This document shows positions 19,292 to 30,329 of a stretch of DNA of 64,000 nucleotides, piece by piece. Every line of letters begins with the position of its first letter. The stretch's first letter is position 1. This DNA is from Schaalia canis. GTDB lineage: Bacteria; Actinomycetota; Actinomycetes; Actinomycetales; Actinomycetaceae. The notes under the pieces are model-generated. The model was given only the letters and a program-made list of their open reading frames with translations, had not been told where the DNA came from and did no database searches. Location: NCBI RefSeq assembly GCF_003858455.1, contig NZ_RQZF01000001.1, positions 310,001-374,000 on the forward strand. Reading direction: 5' to 3'. A program made the position numbers and the translations under genes.

Positions 19292-19375
19292 AAATACTCC
19301 TCAATAGTGTTAATTGCACGGTAGTTCGATGTTGAATCGTGTGCTGAAGTGACCACGTTTTGGTACACAACGGCG

Positions 19376-19404
19376 TGGACAATGCACTCACCTGCGGAGA
19401 CAAT
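19376..19404 (+). promoter_or_regulatory. Candidate promoter of deoD
   Basis: TGGACA, a 17-base spacer and GACAAT match a vegetative-type -35/-10 pair, about 60 bases upstream of the deoD start codon. Prediction by eye only. Confidence 0.4.
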
Positions 19405-19462
19405 AGAGGGGATTTATTTTTCCAACGCCTTATGGCGTGGTATCGATCACTTTAGGAGAAAC

Positions 19463-20170
19463 ATGGCAACCCCTCATATCAATGCTGAAATGGGCGATTT
19501 CGCTCCCGCTGTTCTTATGCCCGGTGACCCTCGTCGCGCGCAACGCATTGCTGAACTTCTCTTTGATGAACCGCGTATGGTCAACGATGTTCGCGGAATG
19601 ATGGGCTTCACTGGTGAAATCAACGGCAAGCCCCTGTCGGTCATGGGCTCGGGTATGGGCCAGCCCTCCTTCTCGATCTACGCCACCGAGCTCTTCCGTT
19701 TCTTTGGTGTTGAGCGAATCATTCGCGTGGGCACCTGTGGCGGTATCGCTCCGCAGGTCAAGGTTGGTGACGTCGTTGTCGCAATGGGCGCTCACACGGA
19801 CTCGTCCATGAACCAGTTGCGTATTCCTGGCGTGAACTTCTCAGCAGTGGCTTCTTACAATCTGGTGCGCGCAGCAGTAGATGCTGCCTCCGAAGAGGAC
19901 ACAGTGCATGTGGGAACGATTATTTCCCGCGACCACTTCTACTTCGCTCCCGAGGGCCAGGCACAAAAACTTGCAGACTACGGCGTTCTGGGTGTCGAGA
20001 TGGAAGCAGCCGCACTGTACGGCGTTGCCGCTGAGCACGGCAAGGAAGCACTGACGGTTCTGACCTGTTCGGACCACCTTTTTGATTCTTCTTCGGATAT
20101 GACCGCTGAAGAACGCGAGACTCGTTTCCAGTCTTCTTTGCGTCTGGCTGTCGCAGCAGCACTGTCGTGA
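19463..20170 (+). CDS. deoD: Purine-nucleoside phosphorylase, DeoD type
   Basis: A 235-residue hexameric-type phosphorylase that splits purine nucleosides with phosphate into base and ribose-1-phosphate (purine salvage). It begins MATPHINAEMGDFAPAVLMP. Recognisable motifs are MPGDPRRAQRIAE (phosphate site), GSGMGQPS, IIRVGTCGGI, VEMEAAALYG (ribose/base site) and TCSDHLF, whose Asp corresponds to the catalytic proton donor. The length is normal. The start at 19463 is preceded by TTAGGAG; the reading frame is open further upstream but without a site. It stands alone, divergent from the NSS transporter gene. Confidence 0.93.
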   Translation: MATPHINAEMGDFAPAVLMPGDPRRAQRIAELLFDEPRMVNDVRGMMGFTGEINGKPLSVMGSGMGQPSFSIYATELFRFFGVERIIRVGTCGGIAPQVKVGDVVVAMGAHTDSSMNQLRIPGVNFSAVASYNLVRAAVDAASEEDTVHVGTIISRDHFYFAPEGQAQKLADYGVLGVEMEAAALYGVAAEHGKEALTVLTCSDHLFDSSSDMTAEERETRFQSSLRLAVAAALS

Positions 20171-20262: not shown

Positions 20263-21132
20263 CTAAGCCAACCTGGCTTTCTCTTTCTTCGCGCGGGCAA
20301 AGATGCCATGGCGAGGCGCAAAAAGCCAGGCCACAGCGAAGAAAGCAGTGAGTACCAGGACGATCGTGCCACCGGTTGGCAGATCAATCGACCAGGACAA
20401 GTACAGGCCAATCAAGCTCGCAAGCGCGCCAATAGCAGGCCCCAGGCACATCATGGGAATCAGGCGGTCAGTCAGAAGGCGTGCCGTTGCTGCCGGAGTA
20501 ATAAGTAATGCCAGAACCAGCACATTGCCAATGGTCTGAACGGAAATCACCACCGCGAGAGAAACGGCGACGTACAAAATGATGTCAAGGAACATTACTG
20601 GCAGGCCTGCGGCTCGCGCGCTCTCACGGTCAAGACTAACTGCCACAATTTCCTTGTGGAAGAAAGCAACCACTCCAATAACAAGGCCTGCACCCAGCAG
20701 GGCCGTAGGGACTTCCTCGGCGGGAACACCGGTAATGGAACCAAAAAGGAAATCTTGAAGGGATCCCGCATAACCCGGCGCTTGAGAAATGATGACAATG
20801 CCAAGAGCGAAAGCTCCAACGAAGAGCACCCCGATGACGGAGTCTTCTTTAAGACGGCGATTCTGAGAGAGCAGGGCAACAAGAATAGCCGTGCTCATAC
20901 CAGCGACAGCGCCACCAATGACAAGCGAGCCTGAAAGCACGAAGGCCACTGCCAACCCCGGGAACACCGCGTGAGCGACAGCATCACCAATGAATGCCAT
21001 GCCACGCAGGACAACATGAGCGCCCACCACGCCACACACGAGCGCACTGGTGACCGCCATCAGCAATGCGCGTGGAAGGAAAGCCAGGTTCGGATTGAGA
21101 AGATCCATGAAAAACTCATATGGCGAAAGCAT
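20263..21132 (-). CDS. ABC-3 family permease of the anchored-repeat transporter
   Basis: A 289-residue inner-membrane permease with about eight membrane helices, of the ABC-3 (ZnuB/TroC/MntB) family that moves divalent metals. MAFIGDAVAHAVFPGLAVAF matches the helix-2 family signature, and SVQTIGNVLVLALLITPAATARLLTD matches the conserved later segment with the cytoplasmic loop contacting the ATPase. The start codon overlaps the stop of the ATPase gene by one base (TGATG), so the two are translationally coupled. It is the last gene of the five-gene locus. Substrate is unknown; family membership and the ZnuA/TroA-like partner favour Zn or Mn. Confidence 0.86.
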   Translation of the reverse strand: MLSPYEFFMDLLNPNLAFLPRALLMAVTSALVCGVVGAHVVLRGMAFIGDAVAHAVFPGLAVAFVLSGSLVIGGAVAGMSTAILVALLSQNRRLKEDSVIGVLFVGAFALGIVIISQAPGYAGSLQDFLFGSITGVPAEEVPTALLGAGLVIGVVAFFHKEIVAVSLDRESARAAGLPVMFLDIILYVAVSLAVVISVQTIGNVLVLALLITPAATARLLTDRLIPMMCLGPAIGALASLIGLYLSWSIDLPTGGTIVLVLTAFFAVAWLFAPRHGIFARAKKEKARLA

Positions 21133-21947
21133 CAGGCTACCCCCAAGGCTGTGAGCAAAGGATTGTCAGGGCGAACTTTGAAGGTTTCGATCCATACCTG
21201 TGGGTCCCGCAATTCTTCAGGTGTGCCTGACGCAACAACCTTCTGATTAACCAGGTGCAGGCGATCACAGTCCGCAAGGGCTCCGATGAGATCATGGGTG
21301 GTCATGAGCACCGCCTGACCGTTATGCGCCAAAGAACGGAACATGTCGGTGAGCATTTCCTGGGTGGGCATATCCAGACCGGTAAAAGGCTCATCAAGAA
21401 GCAACACATCCGGGTTCAACGCAAGGGCACGAGCCACGAGGACTCGCTGGCGTTGACCGCCCGATAGCTCTCCCACCGGGCGAGAGGACAGGTCACGCAT
21501 ATTGGTCTTGAGCAACGCCTGCTCCACCGCGCGCTGGTGTTCCAAGCGAGGGCGCCTACCCCATCCGAGAACCCCAGCAAGACCAGCAACGACAGCCTCA
21601 CGCACTGTCAGCGGAAAATCCCACGCGAACTCGTGACGCTGAGGAACATAACCAATACGCCGTGGGACAACAGGCTGGCCATTAACACGAACACTACCGT
21701 CCTTCATTCGCACCAGGCCCAAAATGGAACGAAGAAGGGTGGTTTTACCTGCCCCGTTGGGGCCAATCAGGGCCGCGAACTCACCGTGCCGAACATCTAA
21801 AGTGACGCCGGTTAGAACCTCGCGGCCGCCAAGGTCAACACGCACGCCTTCGACCTGCAGCGCGGGCTCAGTCGGCGCAAGGCTCACGCTGTCTGGCGTC
21901 ACAGCAGAAGAAACGGCTGACGTTTCAACGAGCGCTTCAGCACTCAC
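21132..21947 (-). CDS. ATP-binding subunit of the anchored-repeat ABC transporter
   Basis: A 271-residue ABC ATPase that powers import by the adjacent permease. The Walker A is GPNGAGKTT (about 63-71), the Q-loop lies in RRIGYVPQRHEF, the signature is LSGGQRQR, the Walker B is VLLLDEPF and the switch His is in MTTHDL. An N-terminal extension of about 30 residues precedes the catalytic core. The GTG start overlaps the TGA of the upstream membrane-anchored repeat protein gene by four bases. ABC ATPases of this subgroup occur with ZnuA-like binding proteins and surface repeat proteins in Actinobacteria (the 'anchored repeat' type of TIGRFAM). Confidence 0.88.
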   Translation of the reverse strand: MSAEALVETSAVSSAVTPDSVSLAPTEPALQVEGVRVDLGGREVLTGVTLDVRHGEFAALIGPNGAGKTTLLRSILGLVRMKDGSVRVNGQPVVPRRIGYVPQRHEFAWDFPLTVREAVVAGLAGVLGWGRRPRLEHQRAVEQALLKTNMRDLSSRPVGELSGGQRQRVLVARALALNPDVLLLDEPFTGLDMPTQEMLTDMFRSLAHNGQAVLMTTHDLIGALADCDRLHLVNQKVVASGTPEELRDPQVWIETFKVRPDNPLLTALGVA

Positions 21948-22936
21948 TTTGTCCCCTCCTGAGCGTCAATCTCAGCAGCAGCCTGAGCGCGTTCACGGGC
22001 GCTTGCACGTGAACGCATGATAACCAAAGTTGCACCAACGCCGATCGCAACGCCCGCCAGTACAACGGCAATGAGCACCCAGGGGATTGCTCCCTCGGCT
22101 GAAGGAGCCATCTCCGTGTCGTTCGCATCGGATGTGCCCATTGCCGGGTCAGCATTCGTTCCAGACTGAGCATCACCAGCGTTGGAGGGCGGCACGCTGA
22201 GTTCAGCGGCAGTAAAAGCCTCGTCGGCGGAGGTTGCATCCCCCACGGCAAAACGCAGCGTCGTTGAGGCACTCAGGTCTTGACCATCGGTGGTTTTCGC
22301 AGAGAAGCGCAGTGCTGCAGTGTAAACGCCGGGTTCAGTGAAAACCCAGTTGGCGTGGACATGGGTATTCACATCGACCCATACGTCCTGAGGTTCTTTC
22401 TTCTGGCCGTCCACCAACAAACGAGGCTCACCGAAAGTGCCATCTTGAAGGAACATCCACGAGCGGCCGGGTCCTTCAACAGGGCCAATACTCATTGTTG
22501 CGCCGCGTTCGACAACGCGAGTGACCTCAGGATCTTGAGTGTTCCAGCCGAGCCAGACGACCTCGTGATTCTCCGTCTGAGGAATGATGTACCATTCCTG
22601 CCCCTCCTTGCCTTCCATGAAGGCATAGGCGCTGTCGGTGGGAGCTGGGAGCTTCGACGCATCCCTCACGCGCAGCACGACTTCATTCGGATCACGCCAC
22701 ACGGGCACGTCGCCCGAATCGTCACGGGCCATCACGGTCCACTCGCCGTTGACGATGCGGGGACCCACATCAACGTGTCCGCGCTCAATGACGTGTTGCC
22801 CGCTGGCCTGCGCTTCATCTGAAGAAACAGACTGGGCGAGATTGGGGTCCTCGTTTGCCAGTGCTGCTGCCGGGGCAAGGACGAGGCTCGCGACCAGAAG
22901 GGTGATTGTCGTGCTCACACGGGGAAGAAAACGCAT
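21944..22936 (-). CDS. Membrane-anchored surface protein with one anchored-repeat domain (choice-of-anchor M type)
   Basis: A 330-residue exported protein. A signal peptide ends near ALAN-EDP (about 28), followed by one complete copy of the actinobacterial surface repeat: it opens with ERGHVDVGPRIVNGEW, continues with EWYIIPQTENHEVVWLGWNTQ and closes with HVHANWVFTEPGVYTAAL and LRFAVGDA. A Ser/Asp/Ala linker, one membrane helix (IPWVLIAVVLAGVAIGVG) and a basic cytoplasmic tail follow, so this copy is membrane-held rather than wall-sorted. It sits 51 bases downstream of the binding-protein gene and overlaps the ATPase gene. It may pass ligand from wall to binding protein (inference). Confidence 0.84.
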   Translation of the reverse strand: MRFLPRVSTTITLLVASLVLAPAAALANEDPNLAQSVSSDEAQASGQHVIERGHVDVGPRIVNGEWTVMARDDSGDVPVWRDPNEVVLRVRDASKLPAPTDSAYAFMEGKEGQEWYIIPQTENHEVVWLGWNTQDPEVTRVVERGATMSIGPVEGPGRSWMFLQDGTFGEPRLLVDGQKKEPQDVWVDVNTHVHANWVFTEPGVYTAALRFSAKTTDGQDLSASTTLRFAVGDATSADEAFTAAELSVPPSNAGDAQSGTNADPAMGTSDANDTEMAPSAEGAIPWVLIAVVLAGVAIGVGATLVIMRSRASARERAQAAAEIDAQEGTK

Positions 22937-22987
22937 AAGGATTACTTTCTTTGAAGGGAAAGGAAATGGGAGACGAGGTAGAAGACG

Positions 22988-24619
22988 CTATTGCGAAGGC
23001 GATCCTCCCAGGCAACGGGCCAAAGAATTGGCATTGGCCATCATCATGTCGACATAGGTATGTACCTCGTGATCGAAGGTGTCACCGTAAAGCGGGCATA
23101 CCTGCACGCCTGACTCTTGAGCGACCGTTGTCAGAGTTGAGCGGCGATTTGCCAACTGCGGTTCAAGGAAAACCGCACCGATGGTGAGGTCCTCAATTGT
23201 TGCGGCGAGCTTTCGACGATCAGCAATGGAGGGTTCCACAGCGGGGTTTGGAGCAACAAAGCCCGCGACACTTAAGCCATAGGCATTGGCGAGGTATGCG
23301 TACGCGTCATGTGTGGTGACAAGGTGGCGTGAATCCTCGGGGATAGTGTCAATGGTCGCAGCAACTTTCGCATCGATATCCTCAAGGGTTTTCAAATAGG
23401 CCGAAGCACGCTGCCTGTACCCTTCCGCACCCTGGGGGTCAACTTCAATCAGACGGTCACGAATTACACGCACATAGGCGGCAGCATTGTGGACGTCATG
23501 CCACAGGTGGGGGTCAATTTCCCCGTGGACGTGCTTTCCCAGAACTGCTTGAGGAAGAAGATAGAGAGGGTCCCCAGGCTGTCCCAGGAAACGAAAACCC
23601 GCTGTTCCGGGTACTTCAGTAAGAGTACGGGTCGGAACATCAATCACGACCTTGTCGAGGTCAAGACCAAGAAGTCCCGGCACCGAGGTGCTCTCAGGCG
23701 CAACCGCATCCAGCAAAGGAGAATCAGAACCGTCAGAGGGCTGATCGACCATGAGGGTGACCATGCCCGCATCAATGTCGACGCTTAGGTCACCGTGCCC
23801 GGCGGCAAAGACAACGCGACCTTCCTCGGCCGCAACCTTTTGGGGGTCAACGCCGACGGCAAACACTGCGGTGCCGGCCTTCATGGGAATCGGTCGGGCG
23901 CCTTCGCTGACTCGCAAAGCTCCGCGGAACGTCACTCGATACACGCCCGGTTGAGTGAAAGCCCAGCTCATGTGTGTGTGCGCATCGGCAGGCAGCGTCA
24001 TCGTATCAGCGGCATAACCGTCCCCCTCATCGAATCCATCGGATGAGGAAAAAGCGATCTGTGGGGTGCCGAAAGTCGTCGTCAAGTAGGACGAGGCCTG
24101 CCCCGGTCCTTCTACCGTGGTGGCGCTCAGATCAACCTCTGATGAACGTGTCGCTCCATAGGTCTGTCCCCTACCGGCCACGCGCATTCCCAGCCAAGCG
24201 GTGTCAAGTGCTCGGTCCTCGACGAGAGGCAGAATGGTTGCCCCGTCTTTCGCAGCTTCCTCAGCGATCGAAACTGACAGGGCAGTTGAGGGGAGGTTGG
24301 CATCAAGGGTGCGGATAATTGCGTGTTCTTCAAGCAACAGATAGTTCGTGAAGGCCAGATCGGCATAGGCAATATCTCGGATGGAGCGCAGACTTGGTTC
24401 ATAAGAGTGCGGGTCGGCGCCATCGGGGACGATCTGCGACAGGTGTACGTCGGGGCCGGCCACATTACGCACCAGGTCCGCGAGGATTCCGGTGGTGGTC
24501 ACCACCCGAAGCTCATTGTCTTCAGATGCCTGGAGCGCCTGTGCGGTACAGGCGCTTAAAGCGATGCTGGTGCAGGCCAACATCGCGGGGAAAGAGAGGA
24601 AACGTTTGTGGGAACTCAC
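22988..24619 (-). CDS. ZnuA/TroA-like binding lipoprotein with inserted repeat domain
   Basis: A 543-residue lipoprotein, the substrate receptor of the adjacent ABC transporter. A lipobox (ALSAC) ends the signal peptide. The N-lobe starts ELRVVTTTGILADLVRNVAG and has PDGADPHSYEP with the first metal His. About 240 residues later the metal-binding fold resumes with HGEIDPHLWHDVHNAAAYV, then TTHDAYAYLANAYGL and YGDTFDHEVHTYVDMMMANA, giving the His and Asp ligands of cluster A-I (Zn/Mn) proteins. The insert holds both halves of the surface-repeat domain in swapped order: HTHMSWAFTQPGVY comes first and AAGHGDLSV second. The GTG at 24617-24619 is preferred, with AAGG upstream and a correct lipoprotein signal. 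An ATG at 24718 would add 33 implausible residues. Confidence 0.86.
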   Translation of the reverse strand: MSSHKRFLSFPAMLACTSIALSACTAQALQASEDNELRVVTTTGILADLVRNVAGPDVHLSQIVPDGADPHSYEPSLRSIRDIAYADLAFTNYLLLEEHAIIRTLDANLPSTALSVSIAEEAAKDGATILPLVEDRALDTAWLGMRVAGRGQTYGATRSSEVDLSATTVEGPGQASSYLTTTFGTPQIAFSSSDGFDEGDGYAADTMTLPADAHTHMSWAFTQPGVYRVTFRGALRVSEGARPIPMKAGTAVFAVGVDPQKVAAEEGRVVFAAGHGDLSVDIDAGMVTLMVDQPSDGSDSPLLDAVAPESTSVPGLLGLDLDKVVIDVPTRTLTEVPGTAGFRFLGQPGDPLYLLPQAVLGKHVHGEIDPHLWHDVHNAAAYVRVIRDRLIEVDPQGAEGYRQRASAYLKTLEDIDAKVAATIDTIPEDSRHLVTTHDAYAYLANAYGLSVAGFVAPNPAVEPSIADRRKLAATIEDLTIGAVFLEPQLANRRSTLTTVAQESGVQVCPLYGDTFDHEVHTYVDMMMANANSLARCLGGSPSQ

Positions 24620-24702
24620 GGGACACCTTCTGCCGCCCGGGGCTAAACGTAATGAGTGATGGGATGGATGCGTCGATCTACTTGAGGGGCTCAACGGCCT
24701 CA

Positions 24703-24744
24703 GCGGTGCTGTGATCACGCGAGGTCACGCGATCACAGCACCGC
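24703..24744 (-). terminator. Hairpin inside the anchored-repeat locus
   Basis: GCGGTGCTGTGATC pairs with GATCACAGCACCGC (14 bases, perfect) 13 bases after the stop codon of the 1507-residue wall protein and upstream of the binding-protein gene. No U-run follows on the minus strand. It may be a leaky terminator or a processing/stability element that sets surface protein apart from transporter expression. Confidence 0.55.
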
Positions 24745-24756
24745 TTCAGTGTGAGC

Positions 24757-27700
24757 TCAGCTCAGGCGAGTTCCTCGTCGGGCAGCAACAACTGCGACAC
24801 CACCGAGGATGACCAACAGAAGCGCATACGGAGCAACCATGTCAGTCTGCGCACCAGTCTGGGCCAACGAACAGGGCTGGCCCGACTTCGTACGACCAAC
24901 GGTTTCTGACACCATCGGACGGCCGTTGGGCCCCTTTTCACCGGTCAGGGTCAGACCTCCTGATGCCCCGCTGGAGCCCTTGAGTTCGCCGGAAGTGGAC
25001 TGCACCTCCATAGAAATCGTCATGGTGTAGGTACCGGGGGCAGTGAAGAGCCAGTTATGGTGGGCGTGGGTATTGGCACTCAAGGTGTAGGACGACCCCG
25101 CGCCGTTAAAGACCATCTTTCCAACGCCTGATCCAAGGGTGCCTGATTCAAAGACCGCAACCTTTCCTGGGCCGTCGACTGACTCCAAGGTGAAGGTGAC
25201 TTCACCTGTCGTGCGATTGACAATCTCTTCACGTTGAGAGTTCATACCCAGCCAAGGCACGTCTTTCACCTGGGTCTGCTGAATCATCCACACCTTCGAA
25301 CCGCTTGAGGCGATGAATTTGAGCTGCTCGGGAGCGTCAAGCGCTGCCTCATCGCCCACGGCAAAGGTCAGTGAAGTGGGATCAACCCAGACGGCAGGCT
25401 GCTGGCGATCGTCCTTAATGCGGGCGAACACGGTGTTGTTCTCAATGACAGGACCGAGGTCAAAGTGTCCGTCGCGGGCGTTACCGGAAGCACCGGGGCC
25501 AACATTGAAGGTCAAGGTTGTTGTCGCCTTGCCAGCGGCTGCTCCCTGAGAGGCTGACTCAAGTTTCTTTACCTCTTCTGGCTCAGCTTCGCGGGTAATG
25601 ACCGTGGGGATACAGACCTCCCCGGCTCCGCCACGAGCGCCGCCACGGGAACCACCTGAAATGCTGCCAGAATCAGTTCGCCCCGAAGGCGCCGAGGTCG
25701 GGCCATTGGAACCCGCACCAGAGGAAGAGCCAGTTCCGCCTGGGCCGTTTGGCTGCTTGCCGCTTTGGGCTGAATCTGCGTCCTTCTTGTCAGTGCTGTG
25801 CGAGGCAACGTGGAAGGCAATCTTTAGTTCGGGGTGTCCTTGAACGAGTGCGTGGTGATGTCCAACAGGGAAATCTGCGGGAACCTTCCACTGAGTGCGC
25901 GCAACGCCCTTCTCGTCAGCTCGTACAGCGGGCAGAACGATCGGATCAGAATGAATTTCGAAGACAACTTCTTCGTGAGGGGTCAGACCGGAGGCTGTCA
26001 GTTCGAGGCTGCCACCGGGTTGAACCGTCGTGGAGGACAGTTCAATTCGGGGGCCACCACAGTTAATGGTTCCGACATCAATGATGTAGGTCTGAGGTGC
26101 GCTGGAGATGCGGTGGGATCCGTCCTCGCGTGAAGCGTTTCCAGTGACCGTCAATGTGTAGCGGCCGGGCTTGCTGAACACCCAGTTGACGTGAGTGTGA
26201 GCCGGGTAGTCCTGCACGATGGTTGATCCGGCAGGATCGAGGGTATATCCGCCCGTTGTCAGGCGTGATTCCAGAGCGTTACCTCCGAATCCCTTGGTGA
26301 TGAACATATGGATGCGTCCACCTTCAGGGCCGGTGTAGGAAACATCGAAGGAGGCTTTTGCTAAACCTGCGGCTGCAATGCCCTGTGTATCCCAGCCAGG
26401 CCACACGAGATCCTTGTCTCCGCCCTGGGGAAGGTAGTAGCCACGGGGTGAGCCGGGAATACCTGCTGGAAGGTCACGCTGAGCGGATTCTTTTACCTTG
26501 ATGAGCACAGTGTGAGGATCACGAATGGTACCCGGTGCGGTGACATCTTCCTTGACCTTTAGGTCGAGGCCGCCGTTAGTGTTGGCCATGAGAGTAAACA
26601 GGTCGGTGTGTCCAGAGTCGAGGACAGTTGTGACACCCTTGGGGTAGCAGGCAGAAGGAGCAGTGTTGCGTGTATCAGGGGTCGTGTCCTTGGGAACATC
26701 CGAGTCCTTGGGAGTGCCGTTGCCTGTGGGGGCATCGTTATTCTTTGGCGAGTCGGTATCCTTCGGAGAGCCGTTGTCCTTTGGAGAGCCTGTGTCCTTC
26801 GGAGAATCCGTGCCCGCCGGAGGATTGGGGCGTGACGGTTGCTCTCCGGGCTTTGGCGAGGTTGGAGGAACCTGGGTGTCGGGTTCCTTGGGGGTATTCG
26901 CCGTCGGGGGAATGACGATGCTGTCGCCACACAGTGCGGCAATCTCGGCATTACCAACGGCGTAGTAGACATTCAACCAGTCGTAGTCTGTTGAGCCTAC
27001 CCAACCGGATTGAGCGCCGTAGTTTGCGCGAATGGTGTATTCGGCAAGGTACAGGCCAGGGCTGGTGAAGGAGGTGGCCAGATGCTTATGAGTGGGGTCA
27101 GCCAGGACGATCTTGTCGCCCTCAACACTAGAGTTCATTAGAACTCGCGCGCCATTCAAAATATCGGCGTCCCAGTGGACCATGCGGCCGGGGCCTTCAA
27201 CGCTTTCAAAACTCATCTGGACGGCATCACCTGAGAGCTTAGAGTAGGGCATTGCCTCTGTGTTCACACCGATCCAGGCCAACTTGGGATCTTGTTGTTC
27301 AGGCAGGGTCCACACGGGGCTTCCCTGGGGAGCAAGAGCTTTCAGTGCTGCCCCGGGACCGTCAACATTCAGGGTGTGCGACGCGTAGTCCGGTACGGGG
27401 ACGACGATCGTGCCGCTTGCACGCTCGACAGTCTTGCCGGTAACTGCGGTGTCCTTCCAGAAGGGTTGAACCTTGCCGCTGTCGCTCATGCGCGCAGCAA
27501 TGTCGTGGTGTCCGTTAGCGACACAGGTGTAGGTGCCCTTTTCGGGGCGTTCAGCGGATTCTCCCACAGGAGCGGCCTCAAAATGGCCGGGGTCTTGTGG
27601 AGCAGGATCGACGTCAAAGGATTCAGCAGGCGTGAAGATAGCGGCAGCCTGAGTGGTGTTCTCAGGTAGGCCAACAGCGCTGTCAGGGCCAACGAGCCAA

Positions 27701-29280
27701 ATGACATCGTGGTTTTGTGAACTGATGACGCCACCTTCGGTGGTGCGGGCGTGAGCCTTCCATGTGGTGGTGTAGCGCCCTGCTTCTGAGAAGCTCCAGT
27801 TGAAGTGTCCGTGTGCGCCTGCGGTCATGCGAACGCGACGGCGATCATCGTTGGAGGAATTGAGATCCTCTTGGACAAAGCCCGCCCCTGAACGCCATAC
27901 CGACATCCAGCCCGGGCCGTCAACTGACACGAGTTCGAGTTCAAGGGAGTCGGGAACGATGTGTGCGGGCATGTCGCCTGCACCGTAGCCTGCCCACAGG
28001 GGCCGCCAACCACGGTAGTACTGTGCGGGCGCGTTCCACACGATCTCGCCCGGCTTGCCTAAGAAGGATAGAGCGTTGGATGCAGGCAATTTGATGCGGG
28101 AGACTTCGCGGCCATTGGTGTCAGCATCGGGCCCCAGACGAACAACCACGTCCTCTGCGGGGCGGAGGGTTGAGCCGTCAATGACGCCTACTGCGAGACG
28201 GTTTTTATCAGCGTCCCAGTTGATATGTGCAGCATCGACATGGGTGCGGTAGAGCATGGCTCGCTGGGTGACAGGGTCAATTTGGGTGGAAATACTTCCC
28301 TGCGGGGCATCCGCATGGCCATCGTTCGTGCCGTCAGGATTTCCGGGGTTTTGCGCAGTCGGTGGGGTCTGGCCGGGCTGCTGCGGACCGTGGGTATGTC
28401 CCTGGGGTGGCGTCGTATCGTTGCTCCCGCTTGGAGGGGTGGTGCCACCACCGTGTCCGTTGGTCGAGGGCGCAGCGGCGGCAGTGTCGTTATCAGAGAT
28501 GAGATCGTCTGCGGTCACTTCAGTGTCGTCGCCGACCGCAATCGTGTAGGTTTTCTCAGTTCGACGTGAGAAGGAGCCTCCATCGGTCTCCCCCATTGCC
28601 GAGACTGCGAGCTTATAGATTCCCGGCTTGGTGAAGATCCACTCTGCCTCGACGCTCTTCTTATTCGAGACGCCGAGCCACACGCCCTTGGCATCATTAG
28701 GCAGGCGGAAGGTGCCAGCGTTTTTATCGCTGTCCTCAACAAGAGAGACGGCGTCGCCAGCTTCATTGCGGGCGAAGGTGAACACCTGAGCGTCGGCGGG
28801 AGCCTTGACGAGTGTCACTTTGATACTGGTGTTGGTGTATTTCTGGGCCAGCATGCCTTCAAGGTTCCACGTCATAGCAGAACCGGTGAGCAGTTCAGAC
28901 TTGAATTTCTTGGTCGGACGAACGTGGTATCCCTCAGCGGAGTCATAAACTGCCTCAGGAACCTTGTGGGCAGGGTTCTGAGGGTTCGGATCAATCTCGC
29001 TGACATCGGGAACCTTGAGGGCAGCCTTTGCCGGATCGTAGAACTTTGGTGTTTCCGAATCTCGGGTACGCATCTGAAGGGTCAGGGCCCCCTCAGCGTC
29101 TGCGCTCAGGTGAAAAAGATCCACCGGGATGTCGTCAAGAACCTGCAGGGGCTCTTCTTCAGAGGTAGCGGCATAGGCGCTGCCACTAACGGGGGTGCCT
29201 CCTGCCGTCAGCGCAAAGGCGAGCAGGAGCGTCGTGACGGAGGTAAACGCACGCTTGCTGCGTCGTCGAGTGATGAGCAT
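24757..29280 (-). CDS. Giant LAxTG wall-anchored repeat protein of the ABC locus
   Basis: A 1507-residue surface protein. The signal peptide ends near SAYA-ATS (about 38). Five copies of the actinobacterial surface repeat are visible, with closing motifs near residues 210, 490, 730, 1030 and 1405 (for example AHTHVNWVFSKPGRYTLTV and AHHNWLFTAPGTYTMTI) and opening motifs such as DSGHTDLF, ANGHHDIA and DGHFDLG. The first closing copy lacks the histidines (KKSVEAEWIFTKPG). Low-complexity linkers separate repeats, including a SPKD/TPKD stretch near 820-880. An Ig-like unit around 1095-1180 precedes the last repeat. LAQTG, a hydrophobic helix and an Arg-rich tail end the protein. It is the first gene of the locus and is likely the wall-level ligand catcher (inference). 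Confidence 0.87.
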   Translation of the reverse strand: MLITRRRSKRAFTSVTTLLLAFALTAGGTPVSGSAYAATSEEEPLQVLDDIPVDLFHLSADAEGALTLQMRTRDSETPKFYDPAKAALKVPDVSEIDPNPQNPAHKVPEAVYDSAEGYHVRPTKKFKSELLTGSAMTWNLEGMLAQKYTNTSIKVTLVKAPADAQVFTFARNEAGDAVSLVEDSDKNAGTFRLPNDAKGVWLGVSNKKSVEAEWIFTKPGIYKLAVSAMGETDGGSFSRRTEKTYTIAVGDDTEVTADDLISDNDTAAAAPSTNGHGGGTTPPSGSNDTTPPQGHTHGPQQPGQTPPTAQNPGNPDGTNDGHADAPQGSISTQIDPVTQRAMLYRTHVDAAHINWDADKNRLAVGVIDGSTLRPAEDVVVRLGPDADTNGREVSRIKLPASNALSFLGKPGEIVWNAPAQYYRGWRPLWAGYGAGDMPAHIVPDSLELELVSVDGPGWMSVWRSGAGFVQEDLNSSNDDRRRVRMTAGAHGHFNWSFSEAGRYTTTWKAHARTTEGGVISSQNHDVIWLVGPDSAVGLPENTTQAAAIFTPAESFDVDPAPQDPGHFEAAPVGESAERPEKGTYTCVANGHHDIAARMSDSGKVQPFWKDTAVTGKTVERASGTIVVPVPDYASHTLNVDGPGAALKALAPQGSPVWTLPEQQDPKLAWIGVNTEAMPYSKLSGDAVQMSFESVEGPGRMVHWDADILNGARVLMNSSVEGDKIVLADPTHKHLATSFTSPGLYLAEYTIRANYGAQSGWVGSTDYDWLNVYYAVGNAEIAALCGDSIVIPPTANTPKEPDTQVPPTSPKPGEQPSRPNPPAGTDSPKDTGSPKDNGSPKDTDSPKNNDAPTGNGTPKDSDVPKDTTPDTRNTAPSACYPKGVTTVLDSGHTDLFTLMANTNGGLDLKVKEDVTAPGTIRDPHTVLIKVKESAQRDLPAGIPGSPRGYYLPQGGDKDLVWPGWDTQGIAAAGLAKASFDVSYTGPEGGRIHMFITKGFGGNALESRLTTGGYTLDPAGSTIVQDYPAHTHVNWVFSKPGRYTLTVTGNASREDGSHRISSAPQTYIIDVGTINCGGPRIELSSTTVQPGGSLELTASGLTPHEEVVFEIHSDPIVLPAVRADEKGVARTQWKVPADFPVGHHHALVQGHPELKIAFHVASHSTDKKDADSAQSGKQPNGPGGTGSSSGAGSNGPTSAPSGRTDSGSISGGSRGGARGGAGEVCIPTVITREAEPEEVKKLESASQGAAAGKATTTLTFNVGPGASGNARDGHFDLGPVIENNTVFARIKDDRQQPAVWVDPTSLTFAVGDEAALDAPEQLKFIASSGSKVWMIQQTQVKDVPWLGMNSQREEIVNRTTGEVTFTLESVDGPGKVAVFESGTLGSGVGKMVFNGAGSSYTLSANTHAHHNWLFTAPGTYTMTISMEVQSTSGELKGSSGASGGLTLTGEKGPNGRPMVSETVGRTKSGQPCSLAQTGAQTDMVAPYALLLVILGGVAVVAARRGTRLS

Positions 29281-29299: not shown

Positions 29300-29314
29300 T
29301 GGGAATCGTTCTCA
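29300..29314. promoter_or_regulatory. Zur-like palindrome upstream of the anchored-repeat locus
   Basis: TGGGAATCGTTCTCA is an imperfect 15-base palindrome (TGrGAA-N3-TTCyCA) resembling actinobacterial Zur boxes. It lies 20-34 bases before the start codon at 29280 and just downstream of a candidate promoter, a position suited to repression. A sequence identical at 12 of 15 positions to its reverse complement occurs at 31522-31536, ahead of the His-rich protein gene. The assignment to Zur is inferred from motif shape and gene content. Confidence 0.45.
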
Positions 29315-29504: not shown

Positions 29505-30329
29505 ATGACCCCACACCAGATTGCGCTCAACGACGGCACACAAATCCCTCAGATTGGTTTTGGCGTATTCCTCATCCCCGAAGAAGAAACGCAGCGCGCC
29601 GTTGAGCTTGCGCTCGAAGCCGGCTACCGCCACATTGACACCGCATCAATCTATGGCAATGAAAAAGGCGTCGCCCGAGCCATTACTGCTACCGGCCTGC
29701 CCCGCGAAGATCTCTACATCACCACGAAGTTGTGGAACGAAGATCAGGGCGCAGCCACAACCCGCCCCGCACTCGAAGCGTCGCTTGAACGCCTCGGCCT
29801 CGACTATGTCAACCTCTACCTCATCCATTGGCCTGTCCCTTCACGCAATCTCTATCGCGAAACCTGGGAGGTTCTTGAAGAGGCTGCCAATGATGGACTC
29901 ACCCGTTCAATTGGCGTTTCAAATTTTCTGGAAGAGCACCTCACCGCACTTGCAGCGATGGGTGGTCGGATTCCCGTGCTGAACCAAATCGAAGTACACC
30001 CAACATTGCCCCAGCATGATCTTGTCGCCACAAATACTGCAATGGGTATTGCCACTGAAGCATGGAGCCCCCTCGGGCGAGGCGCTGACCTGGAAATGCC
30101 AGAGGTAACTGCTATCGCTTCGCACATTGGGGCGACGCCCGCTCAGGTTATCCTCGCGTGGCACCTACAACGTGACCGCATCGTCCTTCCCAAATCAGTA
30201 ACTCCCGAGCGTATCCAGGAAAACCTTGCAGCAGCAGAGATTACCCTCTCGCCCGCTGACCTTGAGGCACTGGACGATCTGGACACCGGCGTACGCGTAG
30301 GACCCGACCCCGCAACCTTTATCGGCTAA
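29505..30329 (+). CDS. Aldo/keto reductase (2,5-diketogluconate-reductase-like)
   Basis: A 274-residue NADPH-dependent cytosolic oxidoreductase of the AKR5-like group. The catalytic tetrad is present: Asp in GYRHIDTASIYGNE, Tyr in the same segment, Lys in YITTKLWNEDQG and His in NLYLIHWPVP. The cofactor segment VLPKSVTPERIQENLAAAEI matches the family. The length is typical. The ATG at 29505 lacks a good ribosome binding site; no better start is near. It is divergent from the anchored-repeat locus, and the two share a 224-base upstream region. Its substrate cannot be read from the sequence. Confidence 0.9.
   Translation: MTPHQIALNDGTQIPQIGFGVFLIPEEETQRAVELALEAGYRHIDTASIYGNEKGVARAITATGLPREDLYITTKLWNEDQGAATTRPALEASLERLGLDYVNLYLIHWPVPSRNLYRETWEVLEEAANDGLTRSIGVSNFLEEHLTALAAMGGRIPVLNQIEVHPTLPQHDLVATNTAMGIATEAWSPLGRGADLEMPEVTAIASHIGATPAQVILAWHLQRDRIVLPKSVTPERIQENLAAAEITLSPADLEALDDLDTGVRVGPDPATFIG

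Follow-up and report, generated by a model that had tools for sequence, protein, structure and literature searches.

We analyzed a 64,000-nucleotide stretch of the Schaalia canis genome (contig NZ_RQZF01000001.1, positions 310,001 to 374,000 of the forward strand; hereafter the window, from whose first letter positions are counted) in which five minus-strand genes between 20263 and 29280 code, as judged from family models, for an ATP-binding cassette (ABC) transporter of the anchored-repeat type, an already known system of which this locus is one further member. In the order of transcription, the open reading frame (ORF) list gives a sortase-type wall protein of 1507 residues with five repeats (24757..29280); a ZnuA/TroA-like receptor lipoprotein carrying an inserted repeat (22988..24718; 576 residues from the first possible start); a ZnuE-like membrane-anchored protein of 330 residues with one repeat (21944..22936); an ABC ATPase (21132..21947); and an ABC-3 permease (20263..21132). 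The gaps upstream of the receptor and membrane protein genes are 38 and 51 bases, respectively, and the membrane protein, ATPase, and permease genes overlap successively by 4 and 1 bases, in agreement with the original prediction, made from the sequence without database searches, of five genes in a row with the last three overlapping. The flanking long ORFs, 19349-20170 and 29505-30329, are both on the plus strand. The source genome is 2.58 Mb in 76 contigs, and among named relatives the closest one found is Schaalia sp. Marseille-Q2122, whose receptor is 83% identical in its best segment, in a list that may omit the source genome itself.

All five proteins score above the relevant family cut-offs, bearing out the earlier assignment to the TIGRFAM 'anchored repeat' ABC transporter set (TIGR03770-TIGR03773 in NCBIfam): 428 bits against TIGR03770 for the permease (cut-off 296.8; also 223 bits against PF00950), 324 bits against TIGR03771 for the ATPase (cut-off 268.8), 692 bits against TIGR03772 for the receptor (cut-off 350.45), 440 bits against TIGR03773 for the wall protein (cut-off 190.3), and 199 bits against NF038134 for the membrane protein (cut-off 55). 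The scores against the four TIGRFAM models far exceed what chance would give. We found no difference in gene content from the NCBIfam type, all four of whose models are exceeded. The Azt models all score under their cut-offs at this locus (AztB, 210 of 280 bits; AztA, 178 of 220; AztC, 185 of 350).

The repeat domain was predicted to occur five times in the wall protein and once each in the receptor and membrane protein, and profile searches recover exactly these copies. NF038134 matches the wall protein in five stretches, and the repeats occupy, on the minus strand, residues 46-250 (28531..29145), 341-533 (27682..28260), 585-778 (26947..27528), 885-1070 (26071..26628), and 1267-1450 (24931..25482); the protein ends in an LAQTG sorting signal, a hydrophobic stretch, and a basic tail (24760..24867, minus strand). 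The membrane protein, which has a hydrophobic stretch and a basic end at its C terminus, carries its repeat at residues 47-234 (22235..22798, minus strand). A Pfam scan of the wall and membrane proteins at an E value of 0.001, NEAT included, matched zero families, a result that a distant relation could escape. Predicting the structure of the repeat and comparing it with known metal or heme domains had been proposed at the outset; an AlphaFold2 model of the membrane protein repeat is confident (mean predicted local distance difference test score of 97.5 over residues 46-237) and consists mainly of beta strands, but comparison with solved structures found no clear relative.

A survey of 373 complete, normally ordered copies from 82 loci (80 fetched loci, the window, and L100, the locus of a second repeat protein described below) identifies four strongly conserved site residues: H8 (94%), D10 (100%), H150 (94%), and H152 (94%). 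In the window, wall repeats 2 to 5 have the site intact, whereas repeat 1 lacks all three histidines, which also sets it apart from the NCBIfam type. This is one case of a wider pattern, with the site lost in 20 of 67 first copies of multi-copy proteins but in only one of 81 later copies and one of 225 single copies; after clustering at 60% identity the counts are 6/28 for first copies and 1/28 for later ones (p 0.10). All 21 site-degenerate copies of multi-copy proteins retain D10, which suggests that the three histidines are metal ligands and the conserved aspartate is structural. If true, this three-histidine reading would refine the published HxD/HxH pocket.

The gene grouping is conserved among the 81 loci compared, namely the window plus 80 loci retained from 154 confirmed relatives. 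Every one of them groups genes for receptor, repeat protein, ATPase, and permease, and in 70 a repeat protein is encoded upstream of the receptor, on the same strand and within 8 kb; in two of the remaining 11 the receptor is located at the end of a contig, and another two have fused frames. In two Alloscardovia loci (L027:6404-12250 and L032:7313-12295) wall repeats and receptor lie in one frame of 1948 and 1660 residues, respectively; the junction retains a sorting-like tail and a lipobox-like stretch, so the fused product may be processed into two proteins.

The repeat inserted in the receptor (about residues 171-390; 23549..24208, minus strand) is circularly permuted, as judged from the order of its halves, profile scores after rotation, and strand order. 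Using separate N-half and C-half profiles built from the 373 normal copies, the C-half lies ahead of the N-half in 79 of the 81 receptor ORFs, whereas the N-half leads in all 373 normal copies, these being the copies that built the profiles. For L027 and L032, which depart from this, the best matches came from normal wall repeats that share the frame; their receptor parts are permuted too, but the N-half match is weak (E values of 3.1 and 0.038). Once the insert is rotated back, its profile score increases in all 81 receptors, L027 and L032 included (median 70.6 to 123.5 bits), while the same operation on 200 of the 373 normal copies lowers the median from 198 to 119 bits. For the window insert the score rises from 69.3 to 100.8 bits, covering positions 36-185 of the 193 in the profile, and the predicted strand order in two structure models, by our reading, agrees with the permutation. 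In a FastTree tree of 150 sequences from 27 of the 81 loci, the 27 receptor inserts fall into a single clade with support of 1.0, and the 27 ZnuE-like copies into a clade of their own (support 0.997); the tree does not place the two as sisters, since the smallest clade containing both holds 100 of the 150 sequences. From the order of the halves, the rotation scores, and the single insert clade, the permutation appears to have been a single ancient event, although the alignment used had been fitted to the profile.

The receptor gives a TroA-type model with a TroA/AztC-like site of three histidines and an aspartate, and has the fold and ligand residues of cluster A-I (TroA/ZnuA) proteins. Among 39 aligned receptors the HxH and HxD motifs of the insert and ligand positions 1, 2, and 4 are invariant; the third ligand is histidine in the window receptor, as in the TroA alignment. 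We note that nine of the 81 receptors, including those of L021, L027, and L057, have asparagine at this third position. The insert ends directly ahead of a DPHLW motif that holds the second metal-ligand histidine. A histidine-rich stretch lies directly ahead of DPHFW in the other ZnuA of the same genome (the alignment is loose inside the insert), and in AztC the D-loop, residues 117-133 ahead of ligand His138, is described as required for zinc uptake from AztD (PMC7463823). This shared placement leads us to infer that the permuted domain sits where zinc receptors have their capture loop. The reverse order of the motifs was noted for the Corynebacterium diphtheriae receptor in PMC12445094, the main text of which has no word starting 'permut', and we found no description of a permuted receptor domain. 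What is new here, at the level of sequence comparison, is that the receptor repeat is circularly permuted, that the inserts form one clade in the sampled tree, and that the domain is placed before the second ligand histidine.

Upstream of the wall protein gene is a Zur-box-like palindrome, TGAGAACGATTCCCA (29300..29314, minus strand). The pattern TGANAAYGATTNNCA occurs exactly at three places in the 2.58-Mb genome (the window, a second repeat protein, and a ribosomal-paralogue site), and with up to one mismatch at 8 forward and 6 reverse positions, whereas the reversed pattern gave 3 and 2. Across the compared loci, searching from -250 to +60 of the repeat or receptor ORF start, the palindrome TGANAAYNRTTNTCA is present with at most one mismatch in 37 of the 81 loci and with at most two in 60; twelve shuffled palindromes gave 0-1 loci each at one mismatch, and at two mismatches 0-4 for eleven of them and 19 for one.

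Other sites in the genome have similar boxes or related genes. The second repeat protein (L100:3342-6425; G000:C1, about 240 kb) is a 1027-residue, two-repeat surface protein whose gene has an exact Zur-type box at the start. At the ribosomal-paralogue site (L011/L101; G000:C1:526982), the exact palindrome separates a CobW_C-domain gene from those encoding L28, L33, S14, type B L31, and type B L36, the last scoring 69.6 against a cut-off of 70; four of these paralogues lack cysteine and L28 has one. Zinc-free forms of ribosomal proteins are established members of Zur regulons. Near these paralogues lies a large surface protein (L101:8284-12336) with an M26 metallopeptidase region, FctA and G5 domains, and a sub-cut-off match to the end of the repeat. 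A second zinc-type importer, znuABC with a histidine-rich receptor (L102:3589-6438), has a one-mismatch box upstream and a FUR-family gene downstream (G000:C1:562485), and a third metal-type ABC importer has two permease-like ORFs (L103:4289-7867).

The ligand of the system had been taken as undefined, a view now outdated for the C. diphtheriae homologue, ZnuAECB/ZnuF/ZnuG, characterized by Peng et al. 2025 (PMC12445094). There the troA-dip0445 cluster and cmrA/cmrA2 are reported to be zinc- and Zur-regulated, with Zur binding predicted sites in gel shifts (PMC6711530); ZnuE and its histidine residues are reported as required for low-zinc growth, and ZnuE, ZnuF, and ZnuG as showing zinc-dependent thermal shifts (PMC12445094). 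In Gardnerella, five genes annotated as an anchored-repeat system rank in the top ten for induction in a genital-tract medium, at 62- to 121-fold (PMC11979175). Taking the C. diphtheriae data with the Zur-type boxes here and in relatives and the site of three histidines and an aspartate, we conclude that the ligand is very probably zinc; of the two metals originally proposed, zinc is thus upheld and manganese is less likely.

The C. diphtheriae system (znuAECB, znuF, znuG, CmrA, CmrA2) resembles the window locus in having a membrane repeat protein, an ATPase, a permease, and wall repeat proteins, in the reverse order of HxH and HxD in the receptor, and in its Zur control, matched here by the Zur-box-like sequence at the promoter; the HxD/HxH motif is in surface, membrane, and receptor proteins alike, with wall repeat 1 of the window lacking it. 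The published description differs in placing ZnuF (two motifs) and ZnuG (one) in a second operon, whereas the window has one cluster headed by a single five-repeat wall protein. AztABCD of Paracoccus similarly combines a TroA-type zinc receptor with an extra zinc protein (PMC7463823), but the window proteins fall under the Azt cut-offs and would have a folded, permuted domain where the loop would be. In the streptococcal Pht/AdcAII system, as discussed in PMC12445094, surface proteins that bind zinc have been proposed to supply a zinc receptor; their motif is different, and the window wall protein has no Pfam match, histidine-triad or other, at the E value used, a level at which a distant relation could go unnoticed.

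Import of manganese, or of zinc and manganese together, is improbable. It would fit the closest PDB sequence match of the receptor, MntA 5hx7, which is annotated as manganese-binding and so counts against zinc, as well as the next model for the ATPase after the anchored-repeat one (manganese MntA, at 235 bits against a cut-off of 400) and the asparagine-bearing receptors. However, the third ligand of the window receptor is histidine, receptor and permease have the zinc models AztC and AztB as their next matches, again below cut-off, and the Zur-type boxes and published zinc data oppose it. Capture of heme or hemoproteins is more improbable still. The layout is reminiscent of the staphylococcal Isd heme relay, in which one domain type is repeated from the wall inwards; that system handles another ligand, and the window receptor differs in itself carrying the repeat domain. 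C. diphtheriae cmrA is also described as adjoining hrtBA (PMC6711530). The receptor model is nevertheless TroA-type, the Pfam scan at an E value of 0.001, which a distant relation could escape, matched neither NEAT nor any other family in the wall and membrane proteins, and this analysis found nothing supporting heme.

We consider it likely that the locus is an operon for zinc import by an anchored-repeat transporter, repressed by Zur and homologous to ZnuAECB plus ZnuF/ZnuG of C. diphtheriae. When zinc runs short, Zur would leave the box at 29300 and the operon would be expressed; wall repeats 2 to 5 would each offer a three-histidine zinc site on a beta-sandwich domain, and the ZnuE-like protein the same site at the membrane. 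Zinc would then pass from wall to membrane to the receptor, which would carry its permuted copy near the place of the histidine-rich loop of zinc receptors, beside the site of three histidines and an aspartate, and deliver zinc to the ABC-3 permease. The gene set, Zur-type box, permutation, and site conservation are supported by the sequence comparisons, and capture at the wall with inward hand-over is favored by the gene set, the use of a single type of site at three places, and the position at the loop.

Several observations weigh against this interpretation. The 81 loci include many close relatives, so that the effective sample is smaller than 81, and 21 of them have no box within two mismatches; TGANAAYGATTNNCA was written after the window site had been seen, leaving only the other two exact matches as independent; and a promoter scan at the operon start found no sigma-70-like site. 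Among the reported C. diphtheriae results, znuA deletion had only a modest effect, deletion of znuF or znuG left growth unaffected with the transporter present, and a ZnuE His-to-Ala mutant was still zinc-shifted in vitro, for which reason the authors left the role of the motif in binding unproven (PMC12445094).

The relay originally proposed fits the anatomy of the locus, but the znuF and znuG deletions fit a store or buffer as well. The main rival is that the repeats are an envelope zinc store raising the local concentration, with the receptor loading by ordinary diffusion, and we regard it as a serious possibility at somewhat below an even chance. Storage is named as a possibility by the authors of PMC12445094, and their deletions lean toward it for the wall proteins, since loss of ZnuF or ZnuG is harmless with the transporter present and both proteins lower growth when it is missing. 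On the other hand, the permuted copy inside the receptor and the repeat protein gene grouped with the transporter genes, both in all 81 loci, suggest that the repeats do more at the receptor than store zinc, and ZnuE is reported as required for growth (PMC12445094). For the anchored-repeat locus we speculate, as a more doubtful proposal, that zinc is relayed from protein to protein by the same fold in each tier (wall repeats, ZnuE-like protein, and a permuted copy that entered the receptor once and replaced the histidine-rich capture loop) through like-to-like docking, and that the outermost wall repeat, which lacks the ligands, serves for recognition and, much as NEAT1 of IsdB recognizes hemoglobin in the Isd system, grips a zinc-holding partner rather than zinc.

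For this locus the analysis indicates zinc as ligand, and it links an actinobacterial surface-protein family to Zur-type control; the permuted domain of the receptor and the first wall repeat, with its ligands lost, deserve further attention. Should the permuted domain serve in docking or relay, the family would be a tractable model for direct protein-to-protein metal hand-over, because donor and acceptor share the same small, confidently predicted domain.
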